From: Terriglobia bacterium
GTDB taxonomy: Bacteria > Acidobacteriota > Terriglobia > Acidiferrales > UBA7541
NCBI GenBank assembly: GCA_020072765.1
Contig: JAIQGD010000015.1
Coordinates: forward strand, 1 to 39,654
DNA length: 39,654 bases
Direction: 5' to 3'
How positions within the stretch are numbered: the stretch's first letter is position 1; the number at the start of each line of letters is the position of its first letter. Shown piece after piece: positions 9,882 through 29,306 of this stretch. Both the position numbers and the translations under genes were made by a program. The notes under the pieces are model-generated. The model worked only from the letters and a program-made list of their open reading frames with translations. It made no database searches and was not told the DNA's origin.

Positions 9882-10558
9882 TTCAAGAAGTCTAAAGGTT
9901 TCACAAGAGCAACAAACGCATATACAGCATAACACACCAGACGCCCCGGACCTAACGAAATCCCCCGCAGCTTCGCACTCTGAGATTCAACGCCCCGGAA
10001 ATTCAGACAATGAGACGTCCCGGGCGCCAGACAGGCGCGTGAGACAATTAGATTGCGACTGAATATAAAGGAGATACAACAGTCATCTAAATGCGCAGGC
10101 TCTCAAAAAACTTATCTATACCCAACGCCTAGCTTCCCCTAACACCTGCTCCATGAACGAGATACGTCGAGAGAAGGCGTTATGCAACGGCACCAGGCCA
10201 CCCTACTGCGATATTCGGAATAAGCTCCCAGCAACATGCGATGCATGATAGGCAAAGTGTGCCGCAACGTCGTTCCAGTACCAAGCCGATTTTCTGTGTA
10301 AATCTCGTGGCGAAAAATAGAACTATTTATTTCAATTATTTGGAGCGGAACATGGCGATTCAAAATTTTCCGCGGAAGGATTGCCGCATGCCAAGTTTCC
10401 TATTTCTTTTTCGAAAAACGTCTCAGTTTTGAGACGGACCGGAGATACCTGCGAACGCTTACTTTCCGAAAGCAACTCTGGAATTTGAGCTTCACGTGTG
10501 TATGATCTATCCTCCGGCGGCGGCAAATCGGCCGGGCATACGGCACCAGGGGGGGCGC
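9882..10558. other. AT-richer non-coding stretch, possible small-RNA locus
   Basis: No convincing protein gene is seen on either strand; base composition is clearly more AT-rich than the flanks. It holds three loosely repeated CGCCCCGGA/CGTCCCGGG blocks (about 9940-10030) and a 7-bp hairpin CGTCTCA-GTTT-TGAGACG (10419-10436). A TATGAT box at 10501-10506 could serve as -10 for the gene at 10559, with a poor -35 (CTGGAA, 17-base spacer). A minus-strand transcript ending at the terminator at 9848 would have to start here. Confidence 0.4.
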
Positions 10559-11719: not shown

Positions 11720-11742
11720 TCCCGCGCGCGCGGCGCCCGGAT

Positions 11743-11771
11743 CGCGCCGGACGGTGCGAGCGTCCGGCGCG
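11743..11771 (+). terminator. Strong hairpin between hydrolase gene and flavoprotein operon
   Basis: Perfect 11-bp inverted repeat (CGCGCCGGACG with its complement) around a seven-base loop, 24 bases after the stop codon. There is no U-tract, so intrinsic termination is uncertain; it may be an RNA-processing or transcript-stabilising element. Confidence 0.5.
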
Positions 11772-11782
11772 CCGAATGCTTC

Positions 11783-11812
11783 TTGACAGGGCCACCGGTT
11801 TTTCGACAGAGT
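11783..11812 (+). promoter_or_regulatory. Candidate promoter of the flavoprotein operon
   Basis: A perfect TTGACA -35 box (11783-11788) lies 85 bases before the flavoprotein start. The best -10 at normal spacing is weak (CAGAGT, 18-base spacer), which would fit an activator-dependent promoter. It sits just after the hairpin at 11743-11771. Confidence 0.35.
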
Positions 11813-11873
11813 ATGCGCGCACATCATCCAGGGCGAATGCAGGTCCTGCCTGATCATACGTAGAGGAGCCATC

Positions 11874-13454: not shown

Positions 13455-13495
13455 CGTCGGGCGGGGGAGATTTGGAAGCTTCAGGAGATAGCATC

Positions 13496-14368
13496 ATGGC
13501 GATTGAACGCGTCAAGCATTGGCAGCTCGGCGATATCCGGATTACCCGCATCTTCGAATTGAAGGACCAGTGCGAGCTTTCGTTCTTGTTGCCCGAGGGC
13601 ACGGCGGACACCGTGAAGAAATACCCCTGGTTAAAGCCGCATTTCGCCACGCCGGAGGGACAAATCCTGGTGTGGTTCCAGGCCTTCGTGCTCACGTTCC
13701 GCGACCGTCGCATCATGGTGGACACTTGTGTCGGCAATGACAAGATGCGCGAATTTGAGCTCTTCACCAAGACGCACACCGCGTTCCTGGAAGATCTGAC
13801 GGCCGCCGGCTGCCCGCCGGAAACCATCGACACCGTCCTGTGCACCCATCTCCATCTCGATCACGTGGGCTGGAATACGCGCCTAGCCAACGGCCGCTGG
13901 GTACCCACGTTCCCCAACGCGCGCTATCTATTCGGCCGCGCCGAATGGGAATACTGGCAAAACCGGCTGCCCGAGAAGTCCATCCAGGTGCAGCATCTCA
14001 CCGACTCGATTTTGCCGATTATCGACGCGGGGCTGGCCGTCTTTGTCGAGCCATCCCATCGCGTGTCCGATGAGGTCTGGCTGGAACCGACGCCCGGACA
14101 CACGCCAGGGCACGTGAGCGTGCACGTCGCCTCCCAGGGACATCACGCGATCATCAGCGGCGACATCTTTCACAATCCGATTCAGTTCGCGGAGCCGGAT
14201 CTCCCCTCGGCCTTCTGTATTGACGCTAAAAAGGCCTGCCACACCCGCCGCGAGTTCCTCGCGCGCTATCAGGACAAGAAGGCCTTGATCGTCGGCAGCC
14301 ATTTCTGCGATCCGACGGTGGGATGGATCGTCCGGGACGGAAAGAACTGGCGCTTTGATTACGATTGA
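13496..14368 (+). CDS. MBL-fold metallo-hydrolase (290 aa)
   Basis: The zinc-binding motif HxHxDH is present as H118-L-H-L-D-H123, followed by TPGHTPGHVSVH and a GD motif (SGDIFHNP), the order of a complete metallo-beta-lactamase fold with two metal sites. There is no signal peptide. The start is chosen for its AGGAG nine bases upstream. Family members hydrolyse lactones, thioesters, esters or phosphoesters; overall layout resembles quorum-quenching lactonases and related hydrolases. Its place between a phenol-oxidising flavoprotein and an esterase-type gene suggests hydrolysis of a lactone or ester intermediate. The exact substrate is not readable from sequence. Confidence 0.9.
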   Translation: MAIERVKHWQLGDIRITRIFELKDQCELSFLLPEGTADTVKKYPWLKPHFATPEGQILVWFQAFVLTFRDRRIMVDTCVGNDKMREFELFTKTHTAFLEDLTAAGCPPETIDTVLCTHLHLDHVGWNTRLANGRWVPTFPNARYLFGRAEWEYWQNRLPEKSIQVQHLTDSILPIIDAGLAVFVEPSHRVSDEVWLEPTPGHTPGHVSVHVASQGHHAIISGDIFHNPIQFAEPDLPSAFCIDAKKACHTRREFLARYQDKKALIVGSHFCDPTVGWIVRDGKNWRFDYD

Positions 14369-14443
14369 CCTGCAGACACGTTGGAGCAAGATCAACAGGA
14401 AACGAATTCATCACCCATCATATCGGGAACGGAGGAAGCAGCA

Positions 14444-15631
14444 ATGATTGCAACGCAAACCGTGGTTCGCAAGGATGGCCGCGACTTCACCATTGACGGA
14501 TTTTGTGATCCGAAATTCGCGGCGGTGCGCGAAGCCTTTGAAACCAATTTTCGGACCGAGGAGGAAATCGGCTCCTGCGCGTCGGTGGTGGTGGACGGCA
14601 AGACCGTCGTGGACCTCTGGGGCGGGTGGCAGGACCAGGCCTGCACCAAGCCGTGGCAGCGCGACACGATCGTGTGCATGATGTCGGTCGCCAAGGGCGT
14701 CTCGGCCATCACGTTCAACGTCCTGCTCGATCGCGGGCTGGTCGAACTCGATGCGCCCATCGCGCGCTACTGGCCCGAATTCGCCCAGGCCGGCAAGGAG
14801 AAAATCCCCGTCCGCTACGCGCTCGATCACCGCGCCGGACTGGCCGTGTGCTCGGAAAAGCTGCCGCCCGGCTCGATTTTCGATTGGAACGTGATCGTCA
14901 ATTCGCTGGCCCGGCAGAAGCCGCTGTGGGAGCCCGGCACGCAATCCGGCTACCACATCCACAATCAGGGCTTCATCCTCGGGGAAATTATCCGCCGCGT
15001 CACCGGCAAGACGCTCGGCAATTTCTTCCGCGAGGAAATCGCGCGCCCGCTCGGCCTCGATTATCAGATCGGCGGGCTTTCTCCGGCGGACCAGGACCGC
15101 TGCGCCGAGGTGATACCGGCCATCGGGGGCACGCTTTTTGCCTCCACCAGCGAGGCCCCCAAGAGCATGCTGGCACAAGCCTGGAACGAGTGGCCCGAGG
15201 CCGACCGCGCCACGGTGCTCAACTCGCGGCAATGGAAAATCACGGAGATTCCCAGCGGCAACGGTCACGGCAATGCCCGGGCGGTCGCCAAACTGTTCGG
15301 CGTCGTGGCGCGCGGCGGGGAATTGGACGGTGTGCGCATCATGTCCGAGGCCGGCGTCCGCCAGATGATCACCGAGCAGCACTGCCTGCCAGAGGTCATG
15401 ATGGGCCGCCCCTATCATCAGGCCCTTGGCCTCATCCTCAACACGCCCACCGTGGTCTGGATGGGCCCGAATCCCAAAGCCTTCGGCCATCATGGCATCG
15501 GTGGCTCGCTGGGCATGGGTGATCTGGAAGCCAAGCTCGGCTTCTCCTACGGCATGAACAAATGGCACGCGCGGCACGATAACGGACCGCGCGCCCGCCG
15601 CCTGATCGAAGCCATGTACAAGTGCCTGTAA
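14444..15631 (+). CDS. Class C beta-lactamase-fold esterase (EstB-like, 395 aa)
   Basis: SxxK motif S81-V-A-K84, YHIHNQGFILGE near residue 170, and HHGIGGSLG near the C-terminus in place of KTG. This pattern fits EstB-type esterases, which share the penicillin-binding fold. RBS GGAGG, seven bases ahead of the ATG. No signal peptide. It is only distantly similar to the hydrolase at 10559. In the operon it follows the MBL-fold gene by 75 bases and precedes the exported cytochrome/propeller protein by 44. It probably cleaves an ester of the aromatic substrate; this is an inference from context. Confidence 0.88.
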   Translation: MIATQTVVRKDGRDFTIDGFCDPKFAAVREAFETNFRTEEEIGSCASVVVDGKTVVDLWGGWQDQACTKPWQRDTIVCMMSVAKGVSAITFNVLLDRGLVELDAPIARYWPEFAQAGKEKIPVRYALDHRAGLAVCSEKLPPGSIFDWNVIVNSLARQKPLWEPGTQSGYHIHNQGFILGEIIRRVTGKTLGNFFREEIARPLGLDYQIGGLSPADQDRCAEVIPAIGGTLFASTSEAPKSMLAQAWNEWPEADRATVLNSRQWKITEIPSGNGHGNARAVAKLFGVVARGGELDGVRIMSEAGVRQMITEQHCLPEVMMGRPYHQALGLILNTPTVVWMGPNPKAFGHHGIGGSLGMGDLEAKLGFSYGMNKWHARHDNGPRARRLIEAMYKCL

Positions 15632-15675
15632 GGCCGCGCTGCAAATCGGTGCGAAGAATCCATCGGGAGGAATCC

Positions 15676-17562
15676 ATGTTCAGGTTTGCAATCTTTGGGG
15701 CCATCATCGCGCTGCTGGCGGCCGCTCCGGCCCGCGCTCAGCAGAATGCCGGGGCGCAAGCTCCGGGCGGACCCGCCTCGCTGGAGATGCCGGCGGATTT
15801 GCCCGGCGTGAGCGGGCTCGAAGGCCAGATCGTCTTTGGCCGCAGCTGCGCTTCGTGCCACGTCTACACAGGCGTCTCGGCGCAGCGCGCCCCGGAGATG
15901 CCGTCCCTGCGCAAGCTCTCGCCCGAAACCATCTACGAGGTTCTCAACGCCGGCACGATGCGCGTGCAGGGGCAGGGCTTGACGGACGAGCAGAAGCGTT
16001 CCGTTGCCGAATATCTGGCCGGGCGCCCCGTGGGCAGCAGTGATGCGGGCGACGCCAAGAACATGACGAACCATTGCTCCGGCGACGCCGCCATCTCCGG
16101 CCCACTGACGGGGCCCTCGTGGAACGGCTGGGGCGCTGGGTCGGCCAACACCCGCTTTCAGCCCGCGGCACAGGCCGGGCTGACGGCCCAGCAAGTGCCG
16201 CACTTGAAGCTGAAGTGGGCATTTGGTTTTCCGGGATCGTCGTCGGTGTGGGGCCAGCCGACCGTCGTGGCCGGACACCTCTTCATCGGCAACGACACGG
16301 GCTATGTCTATTCCCTCAACGCTGCCAGCGGCTGCGTGTACTGGTCGTATAAGGCGCAGGCCGCGGTGCGCACGGCCATCAGTGTCGGCCCGGTGCAAGG
16401 TCAAGGCACGGCCAAGTACGCCCTCTACTTCGCTGATTTGAAGGCCAACGTCTACGCTCTCGACGCGTCCACCGGAAAAATGTTGTGGACCGTGCACGCC
16501 GATGATCACCCGATGGTCCAGATCACCGGCGCGCCCGCCCTGCTCGCCGGGCGCCTGTACGTTCCGGTGGCCACGACGGAAGAAAGCGTCTCCTCGAACG
16601 ACCTCTATCCCTGCTGCTCCGCGCGCGGGATTGTGCTGGCGCTCGATGCCAACACCGGCCGTCAGATCTGGAAGACCTACACCATTCCGGAAACTCCCAA
16701 GCCCACGAAGAAGAATTGGAATGGCATGCAGCTCTACGCTCCCGCGGGCGGCTCGGTATGGACCGCGCCCACCGTGGACCTCAAGAGCCAAACCGTTTAC
16801 GTCGGTACCGGGGACGCTTACACGGAGCCTGCCGCCGATACCACCGACGCCGTCCTGGCTCTCGATATCAAAACCGGCAAGATTCGCTGGAGCTTTCAGG
16901 GTACGGAAAATGACGTTTGGCTCGCCAATTGTGGACCCGACGCCAAGACCCTCGCTTGCCCCGAAGGCGTGATGGGCCCGGACTGGGACTTCGGCGCTTC
17001 GGCCATGTTGCGGACGTTGCCGGGCGGCCGCCGTATTCTCGTCGTCCCGCAGAAGAGCGGCGTGGTCTGGGCGTTCGATCCGGATCGCAACGGCGCGCTG
17101 CTCTGGAAAACCAACCTGGCCACCAAGCGTCCCAATCCCCAGGGGGCGATTGTTTTCGGCGGCGCGGCCGATGAGCAGAATGCCTACATCGCCATCACCG
17201 AGGGAGGCATGGCGGCCCTCGGGCTGAAAGATGGGAAGAAGAAATGGTTCACGCCGATCGTCGCGCCCGGCATGGTCGGCGTCACCAAGGGACAAGCGGC
17301 GGCGGTCACGGCGATTCCCGGAGCCGCTTTCGTGGGCGGCTGGGACGGCAAACTGCACGCGCTCTCCACCACTGACGGCCGCATCCTGTGGGAATTCGAA
17401 ACGGCCCGTGAGTTCCCCACCGTCAACGGGATCAAAGCCAAAGGCGGCGCCATGGGCGGCCCCGGCCCGGTCGTCGCTGGGGGAATGCTGTACGTGGGCT
17501 CGGGATATGCGTCGTTCGGCACCGGGCCGGGAAATGTTCTGCTGGCCTTCGCAGCTGAATGA
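15676..17562 (+). CDS. Exported cytochrome c / PQQ-type beta-propeller fusion (628 aa)
   Basis: Signal peptide MFRFAIFGAIIALLAAAPARA. A class I cytochrome c domain follows, with CASCH (C58, C61, H62). The rest is a propeller of the quinoprotein dehydrogenase/BamB type with repeated tryptophan-docking segments (SGCVYWSY, TGKMLWTV, TGRQIWKT, TGKIRWSF, DGRILWEF). The order haem then propeller matches polyvinyl-alcohol dehydrogenase-like proteins. Length is typical of a single-cytochrome quinohaemoprotein. Whether it really binds PQQ is uncertain: no PQQ synthesis genes lie nearby, and BamB-type propellers have the same repeats. Role inferred: periplasmic dehydrogenase or electron carrier serving the flavoproteins on either side. 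RBS GGGAGG. Confidence 0.88.
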   Translation: MFRFAIFGAIIALLAAAPARAQQNAGAQAPGGPASLEMPADLPGVSGLEGQIVFGRSCASCHVYTGVSAQRAPEMPSLRKLSPETIYEVLNAGTMRVQGQGLTDEQKRSVAEYLAGRPVGSSDAGDAKNMTNHCSGDAAISGPLTGPSWNGWGAGSANTRFQPAAQAGLTAQQVPHLKLKWAFGFPGSSSVWGQPTVVAGHLFIGNDTGYVYSLNAASGCVYWSYKAQAAVRTAISVGPVQGQGTAKYALYFADLKANVYALDASTGKMLWTVHADDHPMVQITGAPALLAGRLYVPVATTEESVSSNDLYPCCSARGIVLALDANTGRQIWKTYTIPETPKPTKKNWNGMQLYAPAGGSVWTAPTVDLKSQTVYVGTGDAYTEPAADTTDAVLALDIKTGKIRWSFQGTENDVWLANCGPDAKTLACPEGVMGPDWDFGASAMLRTLPGGRRILVVPQKSGVVWAFDPDRNGALLWKTNLATKRPNPQGAIVFGGAADEQNAYIAITEGGMAALGLKDGKKKWFTPIVAPGMVGVTKGQAAAVTAIPGAAFVGGWDGKLHALSTTDGRILWEFETAREFPTVNGIKAKGGAMGGPGPVVAGGMLYVGSGYASFGTGPGNVLLAFAAE

Positions 17563-17599
17563 CGCGCCCTGCTAGAAAGGCCAGTCATGGGGAGCACCG

Positions 17600-19198
17600 A
17601 TGAGACTTCCGCCCGGCGTGAGTAGCCAGGATTTCTCGAGCGCGCTGCGTCAATTTGAAGAAGCGATCGGCAAACCATGGGTGTTCACGTCCGACGAGGA
17701 CATGGACACCTATCGCGACTCCTACTCTCCCTTCTGGCACGAAGACGAGGATCCCGTCCCCTCCGCGGCGGTCGCTCCGGACGGGGTCGAGCAAGTCCAG
17801 CAAGTCGTCAAGATCGCCAACGCCCATAAGATTCCTCTCTGGACGATCTCCACGGGAAAAAATCTCGGCTATGGCGGCTCCGCGCCGGTCCTCTCCGGCA
17901 GTGTGATCCTCGACCTCAAGCGCATGAACCGGATTCTGGAGGTCAACGAGCACAATCATTACGCGCTCGTCGAACCCGGCGTCAGCTACTTCGATCTCTA
18001 CCGCTACATTCAGGAGCGCGGGCTGCGCGTCATGGTGGACGCGGCCGATCCCGGCTGGGGCAGCGTGCTCGGCAACGCCATTGACCGCGGAGGCGGCCAC
18101 ACGCCGATGCGCGATCACTTCGACGCGCACTGCGGCCTGGAAGTCGTTCTCGCCGACGGCGAACTCCTGCGCACCGGCATGGGCGCGCTGCCCGGCGCGA
18201 AGACCTGGCAGCAGTACCGCTACGGCTTCGGCCCCTATGTCGACGGCATCTTTTCGCAGTCCAATTTCGGCGTGGTCACCAAGATGGGCATGTGGCTCTA
18301 CCCGCAGCCCGAGGTCCACATGCAGGCCACGGTCACCGTTCCGCGCCACGATGACCTGATTCCGCTCGTGGACATCGTCGCCTATCTCATGAATTCCGGC
18401 ATCGTCACCAGCACCACCCAGTTCGCCACCCCCCTGTTCAGCGGACCGCAGGAAGATTCCGAGCTTTCCGCGCTTCGCGCGAGGCCGGACGCGCCTTCGG
18501 CGCAAGAGCTCGAGCAGCTCTTCCAGCGCAAGAATCTCGGCTACTGGAGCGTGGATTTGCCCTTCTATGGGCCCGCTAAGGTCGTCGCCGCGCAATGGGA
18601 ATATGCCCGCCAGAGATTCTCCGCCATTCCCGGCGCGACATTTCAGGAAGGAAAGCTGTACCGCTTTCCCCTCGACCCCAAGGAACTCGAACAGGTTCCC
18701 AATCCCGTGCTGCTGGGTGTGCCCAACCTCGCCATCTTCGGCATCGGAGGCCCGCGCAGCCAGGGCCACCTGTGGTTCTCGCCCATCATTCCGATGACGG
18801 GAGAAGCGGTGTTCGAGGCGCAGAAGGTGTTCGCCACCGCCTACCGGGAATTGGACCTGCCCGTCATCGCCGCCGGCCAGACGTTCTTCGGCCCCGCGTC
18901 CAATTACCCGCGCTGCTTTCTGATTCTGTTCGGATTCCCGGTCGAACACGACATCGAAAAGAACCGCAAGAACCGCGCCGCGTTCAAGCACCTGGTTCAG
19001 ATTGCCGCCGAGCACGGCTGGGGAGAGTACCGCACGCATACGGCGTTCATGCAGACGGTTTCCGACGCCTACAGCTTCAACAACCACGCGCTGCGGCGCT
19101 TCAACGAAACGATCAAGGACACCATTGATCCCAACGGCATCCTTTCGCCCGGCAAATGCGGCATCTGGCCCAAACACCTCCGGGAGGCAAAACCATGA
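17600..19198 (+). CDS. VAO/PCMH-family flavoprotein subunit (532 aa), copy 2, paired with cytochrome
   Basis: Close paralogue of the gene at 11874, similar along the whole length. The same key residues are present: RGGGHTPMRDHF with Asp172, and GWGEYRTH with Tyr477-Arg478 (phenolate site). The family's covalent-FAD region reads NYPRCF (435-440). No signal peptide. Its stop overlaps the start of a small cytochrome c gene by four bases (ATGA), the arrangement of p-cresol methylhydroxylase and eugenol hydroxylase, where the flavoprotein passes electrons directly to a bound cytochrome subunit. Expected reaction: hydroxylation or dehydrogenation at the benzylic carbon of a 4-alkylphenol, with water as oxygen source. 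The actual substrate is unknown. Confidence 0.93.
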   Translation: MRLPPGVSSQDFSSALRQFEEAIGKPWVFTSDEDMDTYRDSYSPFWHEDEDPVPSAAVAPDGVEQVQQVVKIANAHKIPLWTISTGKNLGYGGSAPVLSGSVILDLKRMNRILEVNEHNHYALVEPGVSYFDLYRYIQERGLRVMVDAADPGWGSVLGNAIDRGGGHTPMRDHFDAHCGLEVVLADGELLRTGMGALPGAKTWQQYRYGFGPYVDGIFSQSNFGVVTKMGMWLYPQPEVHMQATVTVPRHDDLIPLVDIVAYLMNSGIVTSTTQFATPLFSGPQEDSELSALRARPDAPSAQELEQLFQRKNLGYWSVDLPFYGPAKVVAAQWEYARQRFSAIPGATFQEGKLYRFPLDPKELEQVPNPVLLGVPNLAIFGIGGPRSQGHLWFSPIIPMTGEAVFEAQKVFATAYRELDLPVIAAGQTFFGPASNYPRCFLILFGFPVEHDIEKNRKNRAAFKHLVQIAAEHGWGEYRTHTAFMQTVSDAYSFNNHALRRFNETIKDTIDPNGILSPGKCGIWPKHLREAKP

Positions 19199-19551
19199 AA
19201 AACGGGAAAGCCGCTTTGTGGATCGTTCTGAGTTTGCTGTTTGCGGGACGCGCGCTGGCCGCACCCGACGAATCGGCCGTTGAAAAAGGGCGCCAGGTCT
19301 ATCAGAAATGGTGCCTGCCGTGTCACGGCGACGGCGTGGGGAAGCCCGGCACCGACGCCCTCGCCGAGCACTATAAGGGACAGAAACCCGCCGTGCTGGA
19401 ACAGCGCTCGGACCTGACTCCGGAGATGATCCGGCAGTTCGTCCGCCACGGCGTCCTGTTCATGCCCTCATTTCGCAAGACCGAAATCACCGATGCCGAT
19501 CTGGCGGCGATCTCCTCCTACCTGACGCGCAACAACAAACCCAAACCGTAG
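19195..19551 (+). CDS. Small exported c-type cytochrome, PCMH cytochrome-subunit-like (118 aa)
   Basis: Signal peptide to about residue 22 (ALA cleavage), then a class I cytochrome c domain with CLPCH (C40, C43, H44) and likely axial Met90 (LFMPSF). Length suits a PCMH cytochrome subunit. It overlaps the flavoprotein gene by four bases, so the two are translationally coupled, consistent with a 1:1 complex. It would accept two electrons in sequence from FAD and pass them to another periplasmic carrier. A terminator-like hairpin follows about 105 bases later, so the operon may end here. Confidence 0.94.
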   Translation: MKNGKAALWIVLSLLFAGRALAAPDESAVEKGRQVYQKWCLPCHGDGVGKPGTDALAEHYKGQKPAVLEQRSDLTPEMIRQFVRHGVLFMPSFRKTEITDADLAAISSYLTRNNKPKP

Positions 19552-19912: not shown

Positions 19913-21862
19913 ATGATACCCAAAGCTGTCTCTTCCACCAGGCGCGCGGCGGTTTCTCCGCGGCGGGTGCCGGTTTGGACGAAAACCGTCTGGCTGGCTC
20001 TGGCGTGCTGTTTCCTGGCGGTCATGACGGCGCACGCGCAAATTTCTCCCGGCCCGCTCGCCCGCGCTCATCAATCGCTCAGCGGACCCACGCAGTGCAC
20101 CAGTTGCCATGCGCTCGGCAAGGGCGCGGCGGCCCTGAAATGCCAGGAGTGCCACACCGAGATCGCGCACGAACTCGCGCAGGGCCGCGGTCTGCACGCG
20201 CGCTTCCAGGACAAGGAAAACTGCGCCCGCTGCCACTCCGAGCACAACGGAGAAGATTTCGGGCTGATCCACTGGGAGCCCTCGCTCAAGGACTTCGATC
20301 ACCGGCAAACCGGCTACACCCTCGAGGGCAAGCACACCGGAATCGAGTGCGGGAAATGCCACACGCCCGCGCACATCAGCGCGGCGGTCCGGCCTTCGAT
20401 CCAGATGAAGGACCTGCGCCGGACGTTCCTGGGGCTTTCGCAGGAGTGCGTCGCTTGCCATGACGATCCGCATCACAGCCAGCTCGGCCAGAATTGCGTG
20501 AAATGCCACAATTTCACCGACTGGAAAGCCGCCTCCAAGATCGATCACGATAAGACGCGCTTCCCGCTCACCGGACTCCACGCCAAGGTCGAGTGCGCGA
20601 AGTGCCACACTCCGGCCACGCCCAAGGGACAGCCGCGATTCACCGGCATCCCCTTCGCCAAATGCTCCGATTGCCACACCGATCCCCACCGCGGCGCGTT
20701 CGCGCAATCCTGCGAATCGTGCCACACCACGGAGAGCTGGAAGAAGATTTCGGGCGGCCGCCAGTTCGATCATTCGAAGACGAAGTATCCCCTGGAGGGG
20801 AAACACGCGCAGGTGGATTGCATCAAGTGCCACGCGAGTGCGAATTTCAAAAAGCCCGTGGCGTTCGCCAAATGTTCCGATTGTCACCAGCCCGACCCGC
20901 ACGGCGGCCAATTCGCCGCGCGGAAGGACCGCGGCGAGTGCTCGGCGTGCCACACGGTTGCTGGGTGGAAGCCGTCTTCGTTCGGCGTGAAGGAGCATGC
21001 CTCTTCGGCCTACGCACTGGAAGGCAAGCACGCCGGCGTCTCCTGCGATAAATGCCATCTCCCTGCCGGCAAGGCCACGCGATACAAAGTCGCGTTCGCC
21101 AACTGCCTGGACTGCCACAAGGACGTTCATAGCGACCAGTTCGCGCAGGCGCCCTACAACAATCGCTGCGAGCAATGCCATTCGGTAAAGGGATTCCGCC
21201 CCTCCAGCTACACCCTCGCGCAGCACCAGAAGAGCCGTTTCCCCCTTTCCGGCGGGCATGTCGCCGTCGCCTGCGGGGAGTGCCACGCCGGCGGCCGGGC
21301 CGGCTATCCGGAAAAGGTCGCCGCGTATCGCTTTGCGGATCGCTCATGCACCGGCTGCCACAAGGATCCGCACCAGGGCCAGTTCAAGGAGCGCATGGCG
21401 GAGAAGCGTCCCAACGGCTCCCCGCTCGGGTGCGAGGCGTGCCATACGGTCAAGTCCTGGACCGATTTGCCGGGCTTCGACCATTCCAAGACGTCGTTTC
21501 CCCTGCGCGGCGGCCACGCGAAAGTTGCCTGCGAAAAATGCCACAAGTCGGCCGAGCCTGGCGGCAAAATCAGCGAAGCCTCGTTTCGCTCGGCGCCCAC
21601 GGCCTGCTCCGGGTGTCACCAGGACGTGCACGCCGGCCAATTTACCAAGGGCGGCCAGCCGGTGGCTTGCGAGCGGTGTCACACCGAGGATCACTGGAAG
21701 CCATCCCTTTTCGATCACGAGAAGCAGACCGATTTTTCGCTTCGACCAGCCCACAAAAAGGTCGCCTGTAATGACTGCCACACGAACTTCCGGTTCCTCG
21801 GCGGAAAACAGGTCCTGGTGTACAACCTGGCCCCGCGCGAATGCGCCCGCTGCCACAATTGA
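19913..21862 (+). CDS. Exported 23-haem c-type cytochrome (649 aa)
   Basis: I count 23 CxxCH motifs, one per about 28 residues, from CTSCH near residue 62 to CARCH ending two residues before the C-terminal Asn. Signal peptide with twin-basic start (STRRAAVSPRR), a hydrophobic core and AHA cleavage; GTG 19910 is an alternative start. A recurring module F-D-H-x-x-T-x-F/Y-P-L-x-G-x-H-x-x-V-x-C-x-x-C-H alternates with CSDCHxDPHxGQF segments; the extra His residues probably give bis-His coordination. Such dense chains act as nanowire-like electron conductors in the periplasm or across the outer membrane. No lipobox and no transmembrane segment beyond the signal. It lies 260 bases ahead of a 28-haem relative and an outer-membrane barrel, suggesting a conduit. 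No catalytic domain is seen. Confidence 0.95.
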   Translation: MIPKAVSSTRRAAVSPRRVPVWTKTVWLALACCFLAVMTAHAQISPGPLARAHQSLSGPTQCTSCHALGKGAAALKCQECHTEIAHELAQGRGLHARFQDKENCARCHSEHNGEDFGLIHWEPSLKDFDHRQTGYTLEGKHTGIECGKCHTPAHISAAVRPSIQMKDLRRTFLGLSQECVACHDDPHHSQLGQNCVKCHNFTDWKAASKIDHDKTRFPLTGLHAKVECAKCHTPATPKGQPRFTGIPFAKCSDCHTDPHRGAFAQSCESCHTTESWKKISGGRQFDHSKTKYPLEGKHAQVDCIKCHASANFKKPVAFAKCSDCHQPDPHGGQFAARKDRGECSACHTVAGWKPSSFGVKEHASSAYALEGKHAGVSCDKCHLPAGKATRYKVAFANCLDCHKDVHSDQFAQAPYNNRCEQCHSVKGFRPSSYTLAQHQKSRFPLSGGHVAVACGECHAGGRAGYPEKVAAYRFADRSCTGCHKDPHQGQFKERMAEKRPNGSPLGCEACHTVKSWTDLPGFDHSKTSFPLRGGHAKVACEKCHKSAEPGGKISEASFRSAPTACSGCHQDVHAGQFTKGGQPVACERCHTEDHWKPSLFDHEKQTDFSLRPAHKKVACNDCHTNFRFLGGKQVLVYNLAPRECARCHN

Positions 21863-22121: not shown

Positions 22122-24290
22122 ATGTACTGGACGGCACTCATAGAATTGCTGCTCTTGCTACTGACCTTCGCGGGCCCCGCGGCTGTATCCGCGCACGCGC
22201 AGAAGGACAGGAACACCAATCGGAATCCGCACGGGCTCCTCAACATGCCCTGCGAGAATTGCCACACCAATTCCGGCTGGAAACCCATTCGCGGCGTTCC
22301 GGAGTTCGACCACAACCGCACCAGCTACGCGCTGCGGGGCATGCATCAGAAGGTCGCCTGCGCGCAGTGCCACACCAATCTCGTCTTCACCCAGATCGGC
22401 ACGCGCTGCGCCGATTGCCATGCCGACCTGCATCGCGGCCAGTTTGGCGCGAAATGCGAGGAGTGCCACACCGTCCAGGGCTGGCAGGTCCGCACCCAGC
22501 ATCTCAAGGATCACATGAACCGGTTCCCACTGCTGGGCGCGCACGCCATGGTGGATTGCGTCGATTGCCACAAGAACGAAGCGGCGGGACAGTTTACCGG
22601 CCTTTCGACGGCCTGCTACTCCTGCCACACCGCCGACTTCCAGAACGCCACCGGGCCCAACCACAAGACGCTGAACTTCCCGGTCACCTGTGATGCGTGC
22701 CATACCGCCGACACCTGGTTCGGCGCGAAATTCGATCACTTGAAGTACACCGGCTATGCTCTCACCGGAGCCCATGCCACGCTGGACTGCACGGCCTGCC
22801 ACATCAACGGAAGATTCGCGGGCACTCCGGCCGATTGCTATAGCTGCCACGTCAAGGATTACAACGGCACCACCAGCCCGAATCACGTCAAGGCCGGCAT
22901 CCCGACGCAATGCTCGACGTGCCACAATACAACCGCCTGGATCCCTGCGTCGTTCGACCACAACCTGACGTCGTTCCCGCTGACCGGAGCGCACGTCACC
23001 GTGCTCTGCGCCACCTGCCACACCGACAATTACGCCGGCACGCTGCCCACCGCCTGCTACGGCTGCCATGCCAAGGACTTCAACAACACCGCCACGATCG
23101 GCGGAAGCGTGCCCAATCATGTCAACGGAGGTTTCTCGCAGAATTGCATTCTCTGCCATACGACCCAGACATGGCTCAATGCCACGTTCGACCACAGCCT
23201 CACGGCGTTTCCGCTCACCGGCGCGCACCTCACCGTCGCCTGCGCCACCTGCCACACCGACAACTATGCGGGCACGCTGCCCACGAATTGCTACGGCTGC
23301 CATGCCAAGGACTTCAACAACACAGCGAACATCTCCGGCGTTCCCAATCACGTCAACGCCGGTTTCTCGCAGACGTGCACGCTCTGCCATACGACCACCA
23401 CCTGGCTCAATGCCACATTCAATCACAACGCCACGGCGTTTCCGCTCACCGGCGCGCACCTCACCGTCGCCTGCGCCACCTGCCACACGGACAACTACGC
23501 CGGCACGCTGCCCACCACCTGCTACGGCTGCCATGCCAAGGACTACAGCAACACGGCGACCATTGCGGGCGTGCCCAACCACGTCACGGCCAACTTCCCG
23601 CAGGACTGCACGCTGTGCCACAGCACTTCGACCTGGCTGAACGCCACCTTTAATCACAACAACACATCGTTCCCGCTCACCGGCGCGCACCTCACGGTCG
23701 CCTGCGCCACTTGCCACACCGACAACTACGCCGGCACGCTGCCCACCACCTGCTACGGCTGCCACACCAAGGACTACAACAACACCGCCACCATTGCAGG
23801 CGTGCCCAATCACGTGACCGCGGGGTACCCGACCGACTGCACCATGTGCCACAACACGACGAGCTGGCTGGGAGCGGTGTTCGATCACAACAAGACTCCC
23901 TTCCCGCTCACCGGCGCGCACGTCACGGTCCCCTGCGCCAGTTGCCACATCGGCGGGGTCTACGCCGGAACACCGACCGACTGCTACTCGTGCCATAAGG
24001 CCGACTACGCCGGGACGACCAATCCGAATCACGCCGCGGCGGGTTTCCCGACCACCTGCGCAACCTGTCACACGACCACCAGCTGGCTGGGGGCCACGTT
24101 CAACCATACCTGGTTCCCGATGAACCATGGCACGGCCAAAACGTGCAGCGATTGCCATACGAATCCGTCGAACTACGCGGTCTTCACCTGCACGACGTGC
24201 CACACAAAATCGCAGACCGATTCAAACCATCAAGGCGTGTCGGGCTACGTCTACAACAGCGTCAACTGCTATTCGTGCCACAAGAATTAG
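22122..24290 (+). CDS. Exported 28-haem repeat cytochrome c (722 aa)
   Basis: I count 28 CxxCH motifs, one per about 26 residues. Signal peptide MYWTALIELLLLLLTFAGPAAVSAHA. The first third resembles the 23-haem protein (FDHNRTSYALRGMHQKVACAQCH). Residues about 285-670 are a tandem array of 77-residue, three-haem units (CATCH, CYGCH, CTLCH in each), encoded by 231-bp repeats. The interhaem sequence is rich in Asn, Thr and Ala with few charges, unlike the first cytochrome, suggesting an exposed or outer-surface fibre-like domain. The start at 22122 is chosen because it gives the signal peptide; the frame is open back to 21258 only as a shadow of the previous gene. The barrel gene follows after 17 bases, so the two are surely co-transcribed. 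Function inferred: long-range electron transfer. Confidence 0.95.
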   Translation: MYWTALIELLLLLLTFAGPAAVSAHAQKDRNTNRNPHGLLNMPCENCHTNSGWKPIRGVPEFDHNRTSYALRGMHQKVACAQCHTNLVFTQIGTRCADCHADLHRGQFGAKCEECHTVQGWQVRTQHLKDHMNRFPLLGAHAMVDCVDCHKNEAAGQFTGLSTACYSCHTADFQNATGPNHKTLNFPVTCDACHTADTWFGAKFDHLKYTGYALTGAHATLDCTACHINGRFAGTPADCYSCHVKDYNGTTSPNHVKAGIPTQCSTCHNTTAWIPASFDHNLTSFPLTGAHVTVLCATCHTDNYAGTLPTACYGCHAKDFNNTATIGGSVPNHVNGGFSQNCILCHTTQTWLNATFDHSLTAFPLTGAHLTVACATCHTDNYAGTLPTNCYGCHAKDFNNTANISGVPNHVNAGFSQTCTLCHTTTTWLNATFNHNATAFPLTGAHLTVACATCHTDNYAGTLPTTCYGCHAKDYSNTATIAGVPNHVTANFPQDCTLCHSTSTWLNATFNHNNTSFPLTGAHLTVACATCHTDNYAGTLPTTCYGCHTKDYNNTATIAGVPNHVTAGYPTDCTMCHNTTSWLGAVFDHNKTPFPLTGAHVTVPCASCHIGGVYAGTPTDCYSCHKADYAGTTNPNHAAAGFPTTCATCHTTTSWLGATFNHTWFPMNHGTAKTCSDCHTNPSNYAVFTCTTCHTKSQTDSNHQGVSGYVYNSVNCYSCHKN
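22977..24130 (+). repeat. 231-bp tandem repeats inside the 28-haem cytochrome gene
   Basis: The block beginning CCGCTCACCGGCGCGCACCT recurs at 22977, 23211, 23442, 23673 and 23904: spacing 234, then 231 three times. Each unit codes for 77 residues with three haem motifs. The middle three are nearly identical in DNA over long stretches, showing recent duplication or gene conversion; the outer two diverge. Confidence 0.93.
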
Positions 24291-24307: not shown

Positions 24308-26050
24308 ATGATCGAGCAACGAATTCTGTGGGCGCTGGCCGCTCTTCTGGCCGCTTGCGCCGTACTCCCGGCCCTCGCCCGGGCCCAGGAATCGTCCGAA
24401 CGCCTCACGTTTCACGTCAAATACATCGCGCAGGATGTGGTCTATCTCGATGGCGGCCGCGCCGCCGGTTTGCAGGAGGGCCAGCAGTTGACCGTCGAGC
24501 ACCCTGCCACCCCCGCCGCGGCGGGCCCGGACGCGCCCGCTCCGTCGCCCTCAGGCATCATCGCCTCGCTCAAGGTTGTTTCCGTGGCCGCCTCCTCCGC
24601 CGTGTGTGAGATCTCCAACGCCACCGGCCCGGTGCAGGTCGGCGATCTGGCTCGCTTGCCCGCTCAGGAAGTCCAAGCCAGACGGGCCCAGCAGCAAGAG
24701 CAGCAACGAATCACCGGGGGACGCGCCTACCCGCAAATCATCTCCTTCACCTCCGGCGATCCGGTGGTGGAAGAAGCGCGCGCCTCAGTCCCGCGCCCGC
24801 CTTCGCCGGAAATCAACCGCATGCGGGGACGCATCGGCATGGAATACAGCACGCTGTTCACCCACACCACGCCCTCGGCCACCAGTTCGGACGTCGGCAT
24901 GGTGGCGCGCTTCGACATGACGCGGATCGGCGGCACCTACTGGAATTTCTCCGGCTACTGGCGCGGCCGCTTCCGGTCGCTCTCCGGCGGCGCGCAGCCC
25001 GTGACCATCAGCGACCTCATCAATCGCACCTATCATCTCGCGCTCACCTACAACAATCCCAACTCGAGCTGGGTGGCCGGAGGAGGCCGCCTCTACCTGC
25101 CCTGGGCCTCCAGCCTGGACACCATCGACGGCGGATATTTCGGCCGCAAAACACGCAACAACACGATCGTCGGGGTTTTCGGCGGCTCGACCCCCGACCC
25201 AACCTCCTACGATTACAATCCGAACCAGCACATCGCCGGCGGCTTTGCCAATTTCTCCGGCGGCGATTTCGACAGCACGCGCTACACCGCCACGGTCGGC
25301 GTGGCCTTCAGTTCCATCAACTGGCAACCCAGCCGCCAGTTCCTGTTCACCGAGACGGGAATCTTCTTCAAGCGCAATCTGGCTCTCTACCACGCCCTGG
25401 AAATCGACGCGCCGCACACCGCCATCACCCAGCCGGCAACTTCCACGACGCCGGCGGTCGCGACCAGCACCGGAGGGCTGAACCGCAGCTATCTGACCCT
25501 GCGCTACGACCCCAATCCGCGGCTCGAACTCAGCCTGAGCGATGTCTACTTCCGCGATTTCCCCACTTTCGATCCCAATCTGATCGGCACCGGCCTGCTG
25601 GACCGCTATCTGTTTCAAGGCCTAAGCGGCGGCGTGCGCGTGAATCTTCCCCGGAAAATCGCCGTGTACACCAATATCGGCCAGAGCTCCCGCACCGGCG
25701 ACGCCAAAAGCTCCTGGAATCAGTTGTACGGCATCACCTTGGGCGATATCCGCAAGATCGGAATGCGCGTCGACCTGCGCTATTCGAAGTTCAGCAGTTC
25801 GTTCGGAAGCGGAGATTACAAAGCCGTGTCGCTGTCGCGCCAGATCAGCCAATCGCTGGACTGGCAGCTGATCGGCGGCCTGCAGAATTTCAATTCGCCG
25901 ATGACCAAAACGTCGCAGACGCACTTCATCAACACCTATCTCGATTGGTCGCCGGGAAAGATTCTCTTCTTCAACGCCGGCTACACGTGGCAGCGCGGCG
26001 GGACGATGAACTATGACCAGTTTCAGGTCATCGTTGGAAAGCGTTTCTGA
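24308..26050 (+). CDS. Outer-membrane beta-barrel protein, probable porin partner of the multihaem cytochromes (580 aa)
   Basis: Signal peptide (MIEQRILWALAALLAACAVLPALARA), then a periplasmic domain of about 130 residues (a small beta-domain with VVYLDGGRAAGLQEGQQL, then a Gln/Arg-rich linker). From about residue 170 the sequence is a long series of amphipathic strands with aromatic girdle residues (GTYWNFSGYWRGRF, SSWVAGGGRLYLPW, KILFFNAGYTWQR) and ends in Phe (VIVGKRF), the classic barrel C-terminus for BAM recognition. The size allows some 20 or more strands. It lies 17 bases after the 28-haem gene, as barrels do beside cytochromes in porin-cytochrome (Mtr/Pcc-type) conduits. No homology to MtrB can be claimed by eye. 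Confidence 0.85.
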   Translation: MIEQRILWALAALLAACAVLPALARAQESSERLTFHVKYIAQDVVYLDGGRAAGLQEGQQLTVEHPATPAAAGPDAPAPSPSGIIASLKVVSVAASSAVCEISNATGPVQVGDLARLPAQEVQARRAQQQEQQRITGGRAYPQIISFTSGDPVVEEARASVPRPPSPEINRMRGRIGMEYSTLFTHTTPSATSSDVGMVARFDMTRIGGTYWNFSGYWRGRFRSLSGGAQPVTISDLINRTYHLALTYNNPNSSWVAGGGRLYLPWASSLDTIDGGYFGRKTRNNTIVGVFGGSTPDPTSYDYNPNQHIAGGFANFSGGDFDSTRYTATVGVAFSSINWQPSRQFLFTETGIFFKRNLALYHALEIDAPHTAITQPATSTTPAVATSTGGLNRSYLTLRYDPNPRLELSLSDVYFRDFPTFDPNLIGTGLLDRYLFQGLSGGVRVNLPRKIAVYTNIGQSSRTGDAKSSWNQLYGITLGDIRKIGMRVDLRYSKFSSSFGSGDYKAVSLSRQISQSLDWQLIGGLQNFNSPMTKTSQTHFINTYLDWSPGKILFFNAGYTWQRGGTMNYDQFQVIVGKRF

Positions 26051-26053
26051 GCC

Positions 26054-26881
26054 ATGACGACCTTGGCAGCCACAAAGCGCGTTTCCCACTGGGTCCCCGG
26101 CGTTCTTGCGAGCGCCCTGGCACTGCTGGCTCTGCTCGCGCCGCTCCCGGCTCGCGCGGGATCGCCGGATGCGCCCGATCCCCTGCTGGCGAAGAGCCGC
26201 GCCCTGGTCGAGCAATTCAGCCAGGACTTCTCCTCGCTGCGATACGACGAAGACATCGAGCAGCAGAAATTGAAAGCCAACGACCGCGTCGATTACCACC
26301 GCACGACGCTGTTTGATTCCATCCTGATCATTCGCTGCGAGGAAGGCGGTGTGCGCGTCACCGAGCAGCGCCTCACGGAAAAGAGTCCCACCCACGTGGA
26401 CGCGCGTCCCCTGCTGGTGACCTACGGCTTTTCGGCGCTGGCCATGGTCTTGCACCCCAGCTACGAATCCAGTTTCCGTTTCACGCGCCTGGGCGACGAC
26501 GCCGTGCAGGGCGCGGCGCTCACCCGCTACCGCTTCGAGCATCTGCCCGGCACGCCCTCGCCCATCCTCTACCAGATGATCGTGCAGGACCGCCCCTTGG
26601 ACCTCAGCGGCACAGCCTGGCTCGACCCGGCCACCGGCGCGATCCACCGCATCGAGGTGGAAGTCGGCTCCACCATGTCCGACGTGGGCGTGAAATCGCT
26701 TCGCGCCGTGCTGGAATACGGGCCCGTCGCGCTGCAGGGCGAACCCCAGCCGCAGTGGCTGCCCGTATCCGCAACCGTTGACTTGGAAACGCCGCGCCAG
26801 CACTGGCGCAATATTCATCGCTTCTCGGAATACCGCAAATTCCGCGTGGACGTAAAGCTGGCCGGAGGTACCCAACCGTGA
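26054..26881 (+). CDS. Exported periplasmic protein of unknown function (275 aa)
   Basis: Signal peptide to about residue 35 (PLPARA). The mature part resembles, in pattern only, LolA-like or outer-membrane lipoprotein-carrier folds: alternating strands such as YRFEHLPGTPSPILYQMIV, then SGTAWLDPATGAIHRIEVEV. Only one cysteine (in IIRCEEGG) and no haem motif. It begins four bases after the barrel stop and overlaps the next gene by four bases (GTGA), so it is tightly built into the electron-transfer operon. It may help assemble the barrel or cytochromes; that is guesswork from position. Confidence 0.8.
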   Translation: MTTLAATKRVSHWVPGVLASALALLALLAPLPARAGSPDAPDPLLAKSRALVEQFSQDFSSLRYDEDIEQQKLKANDRVDYHRTTLFDSILIIRCEEGGVRVTEQRLTEKSPTHVDARPLLVTYGFSALAMVLHPSYESSFRFTRLGDDAVQGAALTRYRFEHLPGTPSPILYQMIVQDRPLDLSGTAWLDPATGAIHRIEVEVGSTMSDVGVKSLRAVLEYGPVALQGEPQPQWLPVSATVDLETPRQHWRNIHRFSEYRKFRVDVKLAGGTQP

Positions 26882-27819
26882 GCATCAATCTCTCGATTCG
26901 CGCTCTCGCAGCGCCCGTCGCCGATCCCGAGCGCCCTCATCGCCGCCGCGTCGCCGCAGCCTGGGCCCTGGCAACCGCCCTGGTGCTCGCCATCGCCGCC
27001 TACGGCTTCGATTACTACACGCTGGGCGCCGCCGCCCGCCCGCTTTCGCCCAAGCACGCCCTCCTGCGCCCCAGCGGCGCCATCGGCATCAAGCTCGGCA
27101 TCCTGGGCGTGGGGCTCTTCTTCCTGATCTACCTCTACTACTTCCGCAAGCGCTGGAAGTGGCTGGGCCGCTTGGGCGTCAACCGTCACTGGCTGGACTT
27201 TCACGTCGTGCTGGGCGTCGCTTCTCCGGTCATCATCGCGTTTCACTCGGCCTTCAAGTTCCGCGGCATTGCCGGCATGGCGTTCTGGATCATGCTGGCC
27301 GTGGCCCTGAGCGGCATCGTGGGCCGCTACCTGTACGCCCAGATTCCCCGCCATCTCAACGCCGCGGAATTATCGTGGCAGGAGTTGCAGGAGGAGCAGT
27401 TGACTCTGGCCAGCCAGATGGCCTCTCAGAAAGTATTCCCGGCCGACCGACTAGTGGCCGCCTTCCATGTGCCCAGCGCGGAGATGGTCAAACACAAATC
27501 CGCCATCGGAGCCATCGTCTGGATGTTGATGCTCGACCTCGTGCGCCCGTTTCGCGTCGCCTCGCTCCGCCGGCAGGTGCTGGGCTTCGGCGGCATCATC
27601 TTCAGCCTGGGCGGCCTGTTGCGCAGCACGCACGACGAACTGGAAACGGTCGTCCGCATCGCCCAGCAGCAAGCCGCGCTCTCCAAGCGCATGGTGTTCC
27701 TCAGCCGGACGCAGGAAATCTTCCAGCTTTGGCACGTCATCCACCGGCCCTTCAGCTATGCGTTTATCGTTTTGGCACTCTTGCACATCGGAACAGCTAT
27801 GTTGCTCGGCTACTTGTAG
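26878..27819 (+). CDS. Membrane protein with cytochrome-b-like di-haem His pattern (313 aa)
   Basis: The GTG start overlaps the upstream gene by four bases. About five membrane helices: roughly 25-47, 67-89, 104-126, 131-153 and 291-313, with a long soluble loop between the fourth and fifth. Helix three carries H109 and H123, and the last helix region carries H289 and H303; both pairs are 14 residues apart, the spacing that holds two b haems in cytochrome b. Extra His at 104 and 286 flank them. No CxxCH. It would pass electrons across the inner membrane between quinone or the ferredoxin/FAD protein encoded next and periplasmic cytochromes. I do not recognise a named family; the b-haem call rests on the His spacing. 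Confidence 0.8.
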   Translation: MSINLSIRALAAPVADPERPHRRRVAAAWALATALVLAIAAYGFDYYTLGAAARPLSPKHALLRPSGAIGIKLGILGVGLFFLIYLYYFRKRWKWLGRLGVNRHWLDFHVVLGVASPVIIAFHSAFKFRGIAGMAFWIMLAVALSGIVGRYLYAQIPRHLNAAELSWQELQEEQLTLASQMASQKVFPADRLVAAFHVPSAEMVKHKSAIGAIVWMLMLDLVRPFRVASLRRQVLGFGGIIFSLGGLLRSTHDELETVVRIAQQQAALSKRMVFLSRTQEIFQLWHVIHRPFSYAFIVLALLHIGTAMLLGYL

Positions 27820-27920: not shown

Positions 27921-29306
27921 ATGGACACACTGTTCGCTTTCGTGATCTCCGCCGTGGTGCTGCTGTTCTTCATGCGCCGCTACCTCAAGGATTTGAAGAA
28001 GAGCGAGGCACGGGCTCGCGCTGCCGCGGAAAAAGCCAAACTGCGCTCCGATGGCCCGCGCGCCCAGCATCCCCACATCGACGCTGAATACTGCATCGGC
28101 TGCGCCGCGTGCACTTCGGTCTGCCCGGAAGGCGACGTTCTCGCCATGCTCGGGGGCAAGGCCGCCATCGTCAACCCCTTCAAGTGCATCGGCCACGCGC
28201 TCTGCGCCGATATCTGCCCCGTCGGAGCCATCGCCATGGTCATGGCCAGTCCCAGCGTGAGCGCGGACATGCCCCGCCTCACCCCCGAGTATGAGACCTC
28301 CGTGCCCAACCTCTTCATCGCCGGTGAACTCGGCGGGCTGGCCTTAATCAAAAACGCCGTCTCCCAGGGCCGCGACTCCATCGATCACATTGCCAACCGC
28401 CTGGCTTCGCAACGCACATCCTCGCCAAGCCCCGAGGTGCATGACGTCTTCATCGTCGGCGCTGGCCCGGCGGGAATCAGCGCCTCCCTGCGCGCCATCG
28501 AACGCAAACTCAATTACATCACCGTCGACGAAGGCGAGATCGGCGGCACCGTGGCGAAATATCCCCGCCAGAAACTCGTCCTGACCAGCCCCGTCGAGTT
28601 CCCCATGCACGGAAAGTTCACCAAAACGGAGCTTTCCAAGGAAGACCTGATGGCCTTCTGGAGCAAGGTTCTGGAGCGCGCGGACTTCCAGTATCGCCCG
28701 GGCGAAAAGGTCGAGGACATCCGCAAAGGCGAAGACGCCCTCTTCACCATTACCACCACCAAGGGACAATACCGCGCGCGCGCCGTCGTGCTAGCCATGG
28801 GACGCGCCGGCAGCCCCCGAAAACTCGGCGTCAAGGGCGAGGAACTGCCCAAGGTGATGTACCGCTTGATCGAAGCCGACCACTACATCAACAAACACAT
28901 TCTCGTCGTCGGCGGCGGAGACAGCGCGGTCGAGGCCGCCATGGGGCTGGCGCATCAGGTTGGAAACACCGTCACCCTCTCCTACCGCCAGGATTCCTTC
29001 TCCCGCATCAAGGAGCGCAACTCCCAGCGCATCGCCGAGTGCATCCGCAAAGGAAAGGTCACGGTGCTGTATAATTCTCAACCGGTGGAATTCAAGGCGC
29101 GTTCCGTCATGCTCGACGTGAAAGGCGAAACACGGGAGATTCCCAACGATTTCGTCTGGATCTTCGCCGGCGGCGAGGCCCCCAACGCCTTCCTGAAAAA
29201 GATCGGCGTGGGATTTGGCAGCCGCGATCTGACGTCCGAGGCCGGCAACGAGGTCAAGCGCGCCGCTTCCAAAACCGGAGGCTCGCCCGTCCTCGCTGGA
29301 CGATGA
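27921..29306 (+). CDS. Membrane-anchored ferredoxin-FAD/NAD(P) oxidoreductase (461 aa)
   Basis: N-terminal membrane helix (3-19), then a basic linker and a bacterial-type ferredoxin domain (54-105). Cluster 1 has the normal C58-x2-C61-x2-C64-x3-C68-P. Cluster 2 is C89-x2-H92-x2-C95-x3-C99-P, with His for the second Cys. From residue 174 there is a two-dinucleotide-domain flavoprotein of the thioredoxin-reductase/YpdA type: first Rossmann motif VGAGPAG, second VGGGDSA. No redox-active CxxC, so not a thioredoxin reductase. It probably links NAD(P)H or ferredoxin to the neighbouring b-type membrane protein and so to the cytochromes. It follows that gene by about 100 bases. Direction of electron flow is unknown. 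Confidence 0.88.
   Translation: MDTLFAFVISAVVLLFFMRRYLKDLKKSEARARAAAEKAKLRSDGPRAQHPHIDAEYCIGCAACTSVCPEGDVLAMLGGKAAIVNPFKCIGHALCADICPVGAIAMVMASPSVSADMPRLTPEYETSVPNLFIAGELGGLALIKNAVSQGRDSIDHIANRLASQRTSSPSPEVHDVFIVGAGPAGISASLRAIERKLNYITVDEGEIGGTVAKYPRQKLVLTSPVEFPMHGKFTKTELSKEDLMAFWSKVLERADFQYRPGEKVEDIRKGEDALFTITTTKGQYRARAVVLAMGRAGSPRKLGVKGEELPKVMYRLIEADHYINKHILVVGGGDSAVEAAMGLAHQVGNTVTLSYRQDSFSRIKERNSQRIAECIRKGKVTVLYNSQPVEFKARSVMLDVKGETREIPNDFVWIFAGGEAPNAFLKKIGVGFGSRDLTSEAGNEVKRAASKTGGSPVLAGR

Follow-up and report, generated by a model that had tools for sequence, protein, structure and literature searches.

The protein encoded at positions 26878-27819 of the window (the whole 39,654-nucleotide stretch of Terriglobia bacterium contig JAIQGD010000015.1 analysed here) is, judged from its sequence against the published description of such proteins, the inner-membrane protein (IMP) of a PCC3 porin-cytochrome complex, with which it agrees in all the features listed below. 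We consider it likely that the IMP of the Acidobacteriota PCC3 carries two b haems that pass electrons between a cytoplasmic NAD(P)H module and the chain of MHC23, porin and MHC28; in this proposal we infer the haem binding, the docking, the partner and the direction of flow. Little is known of how Acidobacteriota, which rank with the most abundant bacteria of soil, exchange electrons with minerals and humics. The present analysis places in this phylum a defined conduit that is recurrently conserved, and gene linkage hints that its inner-membrane protein is tied to NAD(P)H and not to quinol. The wide occurrence of PCC3 in Acidobacteriota is a new finding here; our literature search found no paper combining PCC3, Acidobacteriota and cytochrome, and no report of a swap of NAD(P)H modules beside a PCC3 IMP. 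The complexes described for Holophaga are MtrB- and ExtB-type PCCs, a different type from PCC3 (PMC7399161).

The conduit cluster and its inner-membrane protein

The features of the cluster are as follows.

19913-21862, plus strand: MHC23, periplasmic-type multihaem cytochrome c with 23 CxxCH (Pfam Cytochrome_C7, motif count)
22122-24290, plus strand: MHC28, extracellular-type repeat multihaem cytochrome c of 722 aa with 28 CxxCH (motif count)
24308-26050, plus strand: porin, outer-membrane beta-barrel with an N-terminal periplasmic part (AlphaFold, Foldseek)
26054-26881, plus strand: p26054, exported protein of 275 aa (no Pfam family over cut-off)
26878-27819, plus strand: PCC3-type IMP, predicted di-haem b (invariant His, motifs, model)
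27190-27246, plus strand: WX3HX13H motif on TM3, W105, H109, H123 (motif scan)
27310-27324, plus strand: SGxxG motif on TM4, S145-G149 (motif scan)
27343-27726, plus strand: predicted cytoplasmic all-helical TM4-TM5 loop, residues ~156-283 (model and positive-inside rule)
27730-27786, plus strand: WX3HX13H motif on TM5, W285, H289, H303 (motif scan)
27921-29306, plus strand: FADred, membrane-anchored NAD(P)H flavoprotein (Pfam Pyr_redox_3 148 bits, Fer4_10 40 bits)
28185-28217, plus strand: second FeS motif of FADred, CxxHxxCxxxC, with His92 replacing the usual Cys (alignment)

In the description of He et al. (2017, PMC5566968), the PCC3 IMP crosses the membrane five times within ~300 aa and bears an SGxxG motif on TM4 and a WX3HX13H motif on each of TM3 and TM5; besides the IMP, the PCC3 clusters encode a porin and two multihaem cytochromes (MHCs), one extracellular with a median of 34 haems and one periplasmic with a median of 21. 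The window protein is like the PCC3/PCC4 IMPs of that description in its size, its five TM helices, its SGxxG and two WX3HX13H motifs and its setting in a cluster with a porin and two MHCs, and among its homologues SGxxG was kept in 81/81 and both WX3HX13H motifs in 80/81. The clusters described there come from Proteobacteria (PCC4 also from Planctomycetes) and consist of four genes, given without an NAD(P)H module and with quinone coupling as the proposed model, whereas the window cluster belongs to Acidobacteriota and includes p26054 and an NAD(P)H-FAD-FeS protein. The same authors describe another redox protein adjoining the IMPs in related porin-less clusters (PMC5566968). The preliminary description had found that the protein fits no family; it indeed reaches no curated cut-off of Pfam or NCBIfam, but its type had already been published as the PCC3/PCC4 IMP (PMC5566968). 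This kind of protein is therefore already in print, and the PCC3 conduit is known but little studied.

The IMP ORF encodes 313 aa from a GTG start, and its third-position GC of 0.82 corresponds to the codon composition usual for the neighbouring genes. The four-base overlap (GTGA) with the upstream ORF 26054-26881, which had been taken to lock the gene to the conduit operon, was confirmed, and a four-base overlap of p26054 and IMP is possible in 54/75 relatives having the same upstream gene. Scanning of contigs revealed that at least 547 of 591 pattern stretches encode IMP relatives, the best 80 being all from Acidobacteriota groups; 41 of these 80 loci had full flanks, with >8.5 kb upstream and 2.5 kb downstream. 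Because the best 80 loci were picked by similarity, the counts in the 41 favour close relatives: MHC23 was found in 40, MHC28 in 39, the porin in 40, p26054 in 41 and FADred in 41, on the same strand in 38. The claim that the membrane protein is tied to an electron-conduit operon is well supported, the porin and the two multihaem cytochromes accompanying it in 39-40/41 full-flank loci among the best 80. Four loci (L100, L113, L115 and L120) carried MHC23-cytB-FADred, cytB being the IMP gene, and gave no matches to porin, MHC28 or p26054 in sequences reaching only 4-7 kb upstream. IMP matches at E 1e-5 were present in 44/297 genomes of the phylum, and the viral contigs searched contained no IMP relative. 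The source genome has a single IMP copy and relatives have weaker paralogues; an explanation by a second paralogue was rejected, the window genome containing one copy.

The start codon of MHC23 is uncertain (19784, 19913 or 19967), and exactly 23 CxxCH were counted in 37/40 of its relatives in the full-flank loci among the best 80. Relatives of MHC28 carried 20-55 CxxCH (median 31) in 39 full-flank loci and up to 61 overall, the 23-haem partner remaining constant. The AlphaFold model of the porin has ~22 strands (pLDDT 78.9, pTM 0.61) and its best Foldseek matches were outer-membrane barrels; its N-terminal part (24308-24660) matched FlgT_C weakly, with 21.4 bits vs a cut-off of 27. p26054, which may be LolA-like, occurs in every one of the 41 full-flank loci among the best 80, yet its identity is <45% beyond the nearest relatives.

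Histidine pairs, predicted fold and other haem b families

The prediction of a di-haem b membrane protein, with haem binding deduced from the invariant His, is well supported. H109/H123 and H289/H303 had been read as a copy of the cytochrome b spacing; their positions proved exact, one pair on TM3 and one on TM5, two separate helices, and the protein has no other HX13H pair. Shuffling of its 12 His gave at least two HX13H pairs in 5.6% of 20,000 trials, so that the spacing alone is modest or weak evidence and the di-haem case rests on conservation. The equation of two His pairs at spacing 14 with cytochrome b was rejected, given a chance of 0.056 in this composition and the presence of the spacing in other families. 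The preliminary description had named non-conservation of these His in homologues as grounds for giving up the reading; the alignment was made and all four were invariant in 81/81 homologues (46-76% identity to the window protein), so those grounds did not arise. The four His were also invariant in 14/14 nearer orthologues, and in 27 rows of deeper or paralogous sequences no residue aligned at these positions departs from His (L128, which is interrupted, has gaps); a paralogue fragment (L019) is without the last His. H286 is invariant and H60 and R54 are near-invariant in the IMP alignment, and the remotest paralogues retain the four His without H60 and H286.

The AlphaFold model of the IMP with 80 relatives (pLDDT 86.9, pTM 0.78) contains helices at 19-47, 68-83, 102-123 (carrying H109 and H123) and 130-155, a helical domain to ~252 and a 57-residue helix, 253-309, with H289 and H303 in its last part. 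Hydropathy and AlphaFold gave five TM helices, and a sixth, mildly hydrophobic stretch (209-227) lies within the loop. By the positive-inside rule the basic residues place 1-24, 88-104 and 154-284 inside. The long soluble loop that had been described between the helix pair was recovered as residues ~156-283, all-helical in the model and predicted to be cytoplasmic; TM4 also lies between the haem helices. Of the expected pairs of haem ligands, H109-H289 would be the cytoplasmic and H123-H303 the periplasmic one. Foldseek with the IMP model found no match at E 0.001, and searches of solved structures with the IMP sequence and with profile A1 gave chance matches only. VIA-align listed STEAP1 (6y9b, Z 7.7, rmsd 5.8, 146 residues) and NarI (1y4z_C, Z 6.1 over 121 residues, inside the background), and we set this listing aside because both appear among many unrelated helical proteins.

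The HMM comparisons that had been suggested came out negative, the window protein having no match at E 1 to cytochrome b (PF00033), NarI (PF02665) or ferric reductase (PF01794). PF00033 was also absent from the families listed (25 of 28) as matched by the IMP homologues of alignment A2; the source genome encodes its own cytochrome b elsewhere. The best Pfam score of the window protein was that to DUF4405 (PF14358), 25.3 bits over H289-H303 with a cut-off of 26.7, the best of 81 members. Weak matches among the 81 homologues were to DUF4405 (67), Ferric_reduct (52, best E 0.0011, none over the cut-off), Ni_hydr_CYTB (25) and PepSY_TM (21), which are haem-b-type membrane families; the DUF4405 profile also matches true cytochrome b, and in NCBIfam the matches of AciT and others to the IMP were far below cut-off. 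Profile-profile comparison gave E values of 0.013 for DUF4405, 0.036 for b561, 0.44 for Ferric_reduct, 0.69 for cytochrome b and 0.94 for NarI, values that rank and do not decide because the segment boundaries were rough and the run was pairwise (family sets gathered within the phylum, 84 of 110 loci used).

The arrangement of the His resembles that of ferric reductase/NOX, with haems on TM3 and TM5, more closely than that of cytochrome b. The spacing is not peculiar to cytochrome b and occurs also in ferric reductase/NOX, whose H101/H115 on TM3 and H209/H222 on TM5 match the TM3/TM5 placement found here (PMC3591440). As described for ferric reductase/NOX (PF01794), the window IMP has a spacing of 14 on TM3 and is predicted to hold two bis-His haems on TM3/TM5, and a cytoplasmic FAD/NAD(P)H module sending electrons outward is proposed for it too; the TM5 spacing is 14 in the window IMP vs 13 in NOX (PMC3591440). 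Unlike in ferric reductase/NOX, the dehydrogenase is a separate protein, the IMP has five TM helices and a long TM4-TM5 loop, and a multihaem cytochrome is its probable acceptor. DUF4405 cytochromes, for which haem b has been demonstrated experimentally, have the four central His in common with the window IMP and differ by six TM helices and flavinylation partners (PMC11334425). The di-haem reading is supported by the binding of haem b in DUF4405 and by the TM3/TM5 layout shared with FRD/NOX (PMC11334425, PMC3591440).

NAD(P)H modules beside the inner-membrane protein

FADred consists of an N-terminal TM helix, read from the sequence, two 4Fe-4S motifs and a TrxR/FNR-like FAD-NAD(P) domain, and the PDB structure nearest to it is YpdA (7a7b, E 1.1e-28). 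Its FeS residues comprise seven Cys found in 77/77 homologues and an eighth position that is His (His92) in 76/77; R356, R366 and N367 are invariant. A His-ligated cluster is possible in the second motif; in the Emticicia homologue the first motif departs as well, with CxxS. In the alignment of homologues the FAD/NAD(P) domain contains no conserved Cys, indicating that FADred does not belong to the TrxR-type disulfide reductases; its use of NAD(P)H is predicted from Rossmann motifs only. Among the best 80 loci, FADred was linked in 71/72 having at least 1.5 kb downstream, lying directly downstream on the same strand in 65. Its location on the other strand at a distance of 1.5-5.1 kb in 6/72 and its absence from L118 count against NAD(P)H coupling. 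In 110 flanks around other cytochrome b-type genes, which are shorter, none of the window genes including FADred was matched.

Twenty deeper Acidobacteriota loci, which we selected from the 44 genomes (those left out include G063, G299, G296, G248 and G255), showed an altered gene order, often cytB-FADred-MHC23-MHC28-porin. FADred was present in 12/20, and in 6/20 (L124, L126, L127, L130, L132 and L136) a FAD_binding_6/NAD_binding_1/Fer2 reductase unrelated to FADred was located near cytB; the two reductases occurred together in 0/20. The FNR-type neighbours had weak Ferric-reductase NAD-binding matches. L128, which has an internal stop in cytB, and L134 contained no NAD(P)H module among the scanned ORFs, which counts against NAD(P)H coupling. 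Two of the 12 loci, L140 and L141, combine an IMP-like gene with a TrxR-like flavoprotein carrying two cNMP-binding domains and FeS, and with a decahaem c carrying FHA domains, a set that is possibly an electron module gated by nucleotide or phosphorylation.

Remote relatives of the IMP adjoin NuoE/F-, cNMP-TrxR- or FNR-type NAD(P)H modules, in most cases with a multihaem c as well. In L034, L036, L037 and L038 an IMP-like four-His gene was accompanied by a NuoE/F fusion, a NuoG-like FeS protein and a decahaem c; L037, the one of these loci that was scanned with Pfam, has three cNMP domains, and a 4-haem c ORF recurs nearby in such loci. The relatives found on plasmids were either from Bacteroidota or parts of clusters of another type. 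Those of Methylophaga, Sphingobium and Alteromonas each combine a reductase of the FNR type with an IMP-like gene and one further gene, which encodes a cytochrome c except in Sphingobium, where it is unnamed. On pEMTOL02 of Emticicia oligotrophica, the IMP (WP_015031196), FADred (41% identity), a 23-haem and a 40-haem cytochrome and a barrel-like gene stand in one row. This locus (L252, NC_018749.1 67377-96129), on a plasmid of the cultured strain DSM 17448, reads cytB-FADred-MHC-MHC-barrel and also has ccsA.

Proposed electron path and its alternatives

In the path that we propose, FADred would face the cytoplasm, docked on the helical TM4-TM5 loop and the basic TM2-TM3 loop of the IMP, and would deliver electrons from NAD(P)H through FAD and its FeS clusters to the IMP haems. 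These haems would be held by TM3 and TM5, with H109-H289 as ligands of the b haem on the cytoplasmic side and H123-H303 as those of the b haem on the periplasmic side, and electrons would move from haem to haem to the 23-haem periplasmic MHC23 and then through the porin to the extracellular 28-haem MHC28, the whole path amounting to a split analogue of NOX. NAD(P)H is the putative cytoplasmic redox partner of the cytochrome because two unrelated NAD(P)H reductases replace each other beside it, and this swapping, as far as gene content can tell, argues for exchange between the haem protein and NAD(P)H and against the published quinone model. Two arguments favour the outward direction: NAD(P)H is strongly reducing, and electrons that leave the cell move down the membrane potential. 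Since such flow would dissipate the membrane potential, redox balancing or reduction of metals or humics would be expected, and not direct energy conservation.

CymA, ImcH, CbcL and CbcBA are the menaquinol oxidases of known conduits, leading from the inner membrane to a periplasmic multihaem cytochrome. The window IMP would take the same position in the chain and differs by its linkage to NAD(P)H modules; we know of no sequence family common to it and these proteins. We suggest tentatively that in Acidobacteriota, Bacteroidota and relatives the PCC3 conduits may work as NAD(P)H wires independent of quinones, in which a split NOX-like di-haem b protein, fed by a TrxR-like 4Fe-4S, an FNR-like 2Fe-2S or (in paralogues) a NuoEF-like module, supplies giant multihaem cytochromes reaching outside the cell.

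Cytochrome b and NarI are examples of di-haem b proteins that react with quinones, and the conserved H60, R54 and H286 could form a quinone/quinol site; yet H60 and H286 are lost in the remotest paralogues, where the four His are kept. Quinone coupling is the published hypothesis of He et al. (PMC5566968), under which the haems would join the conduit to the menaquinone pool at a cytochrome b site and the FAD/FeS protein would be auxiliary. The account of the Sideroxydans PCC3 clusters as four genes only (PMC12442390) is consistent with it, whereas the repeated linkage to one or the other of two unrelated NAD(P)H reductases, never to both, speaks against it, and we regard it as rather unlikely.

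Flow in the reverse direction, from extracellular donors (Fe(II), minerals or partners) via MHC28, MHC23 and the haems to FADred and NAD(P)H, also appears improbable, as electrons moving inward to NAD(P)+ would face both an unfavourable redox potential and the opposing membrane potential. PCC3 was found in Fe(II) oxidisers (PMC5566968) and conduits can be reversible (PMC10734462). The Sideroxydans expression data on direction, as reported, point both ways: in strain CL21 the IMP of the second PCC3 copy increased together with iron-oxidising activity (PMC12442390), and both PCC3 clusters were down on Fe(II) in ES-1 (PMC8788666). An enzyme like NOX or ferric reductase that itself reduces O2, Fe(III) or another small periplasmic acceptor, the cytochromes having an accessory part, would agree with the NOX layout of His on TM3/TM5 (PMC3591440) and with the weak Ferric-reductase matches of the FNR-type neighbours, but is very improbable, since two giant multihaem cytochromes and a porin are linked to the IMP almost universally and the PF01794 profile is not matched over cut-off.

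With the conduit defined, its putative tie to NAD(P)H and the set present in the cultured E. oligotrophica DSM 17448, how PCC3 is fed, by NAD(P)H as we propose or otherwise, becomes directly testable. Elsewhere in the window, positions 167-7744 encode a 2525-aa GH94/glucoamylase/glycosyltransferase-like protein of the cyclic glucan synthase type, and positions 10433-19548 hold a cluster that encodes two oxidases of the FAD_binding_4 type, three beta-lactamase-fold proteins (two serine, one metallo), a PQQ enzyme that has a cytochrome domain, and a small cytochrome c.
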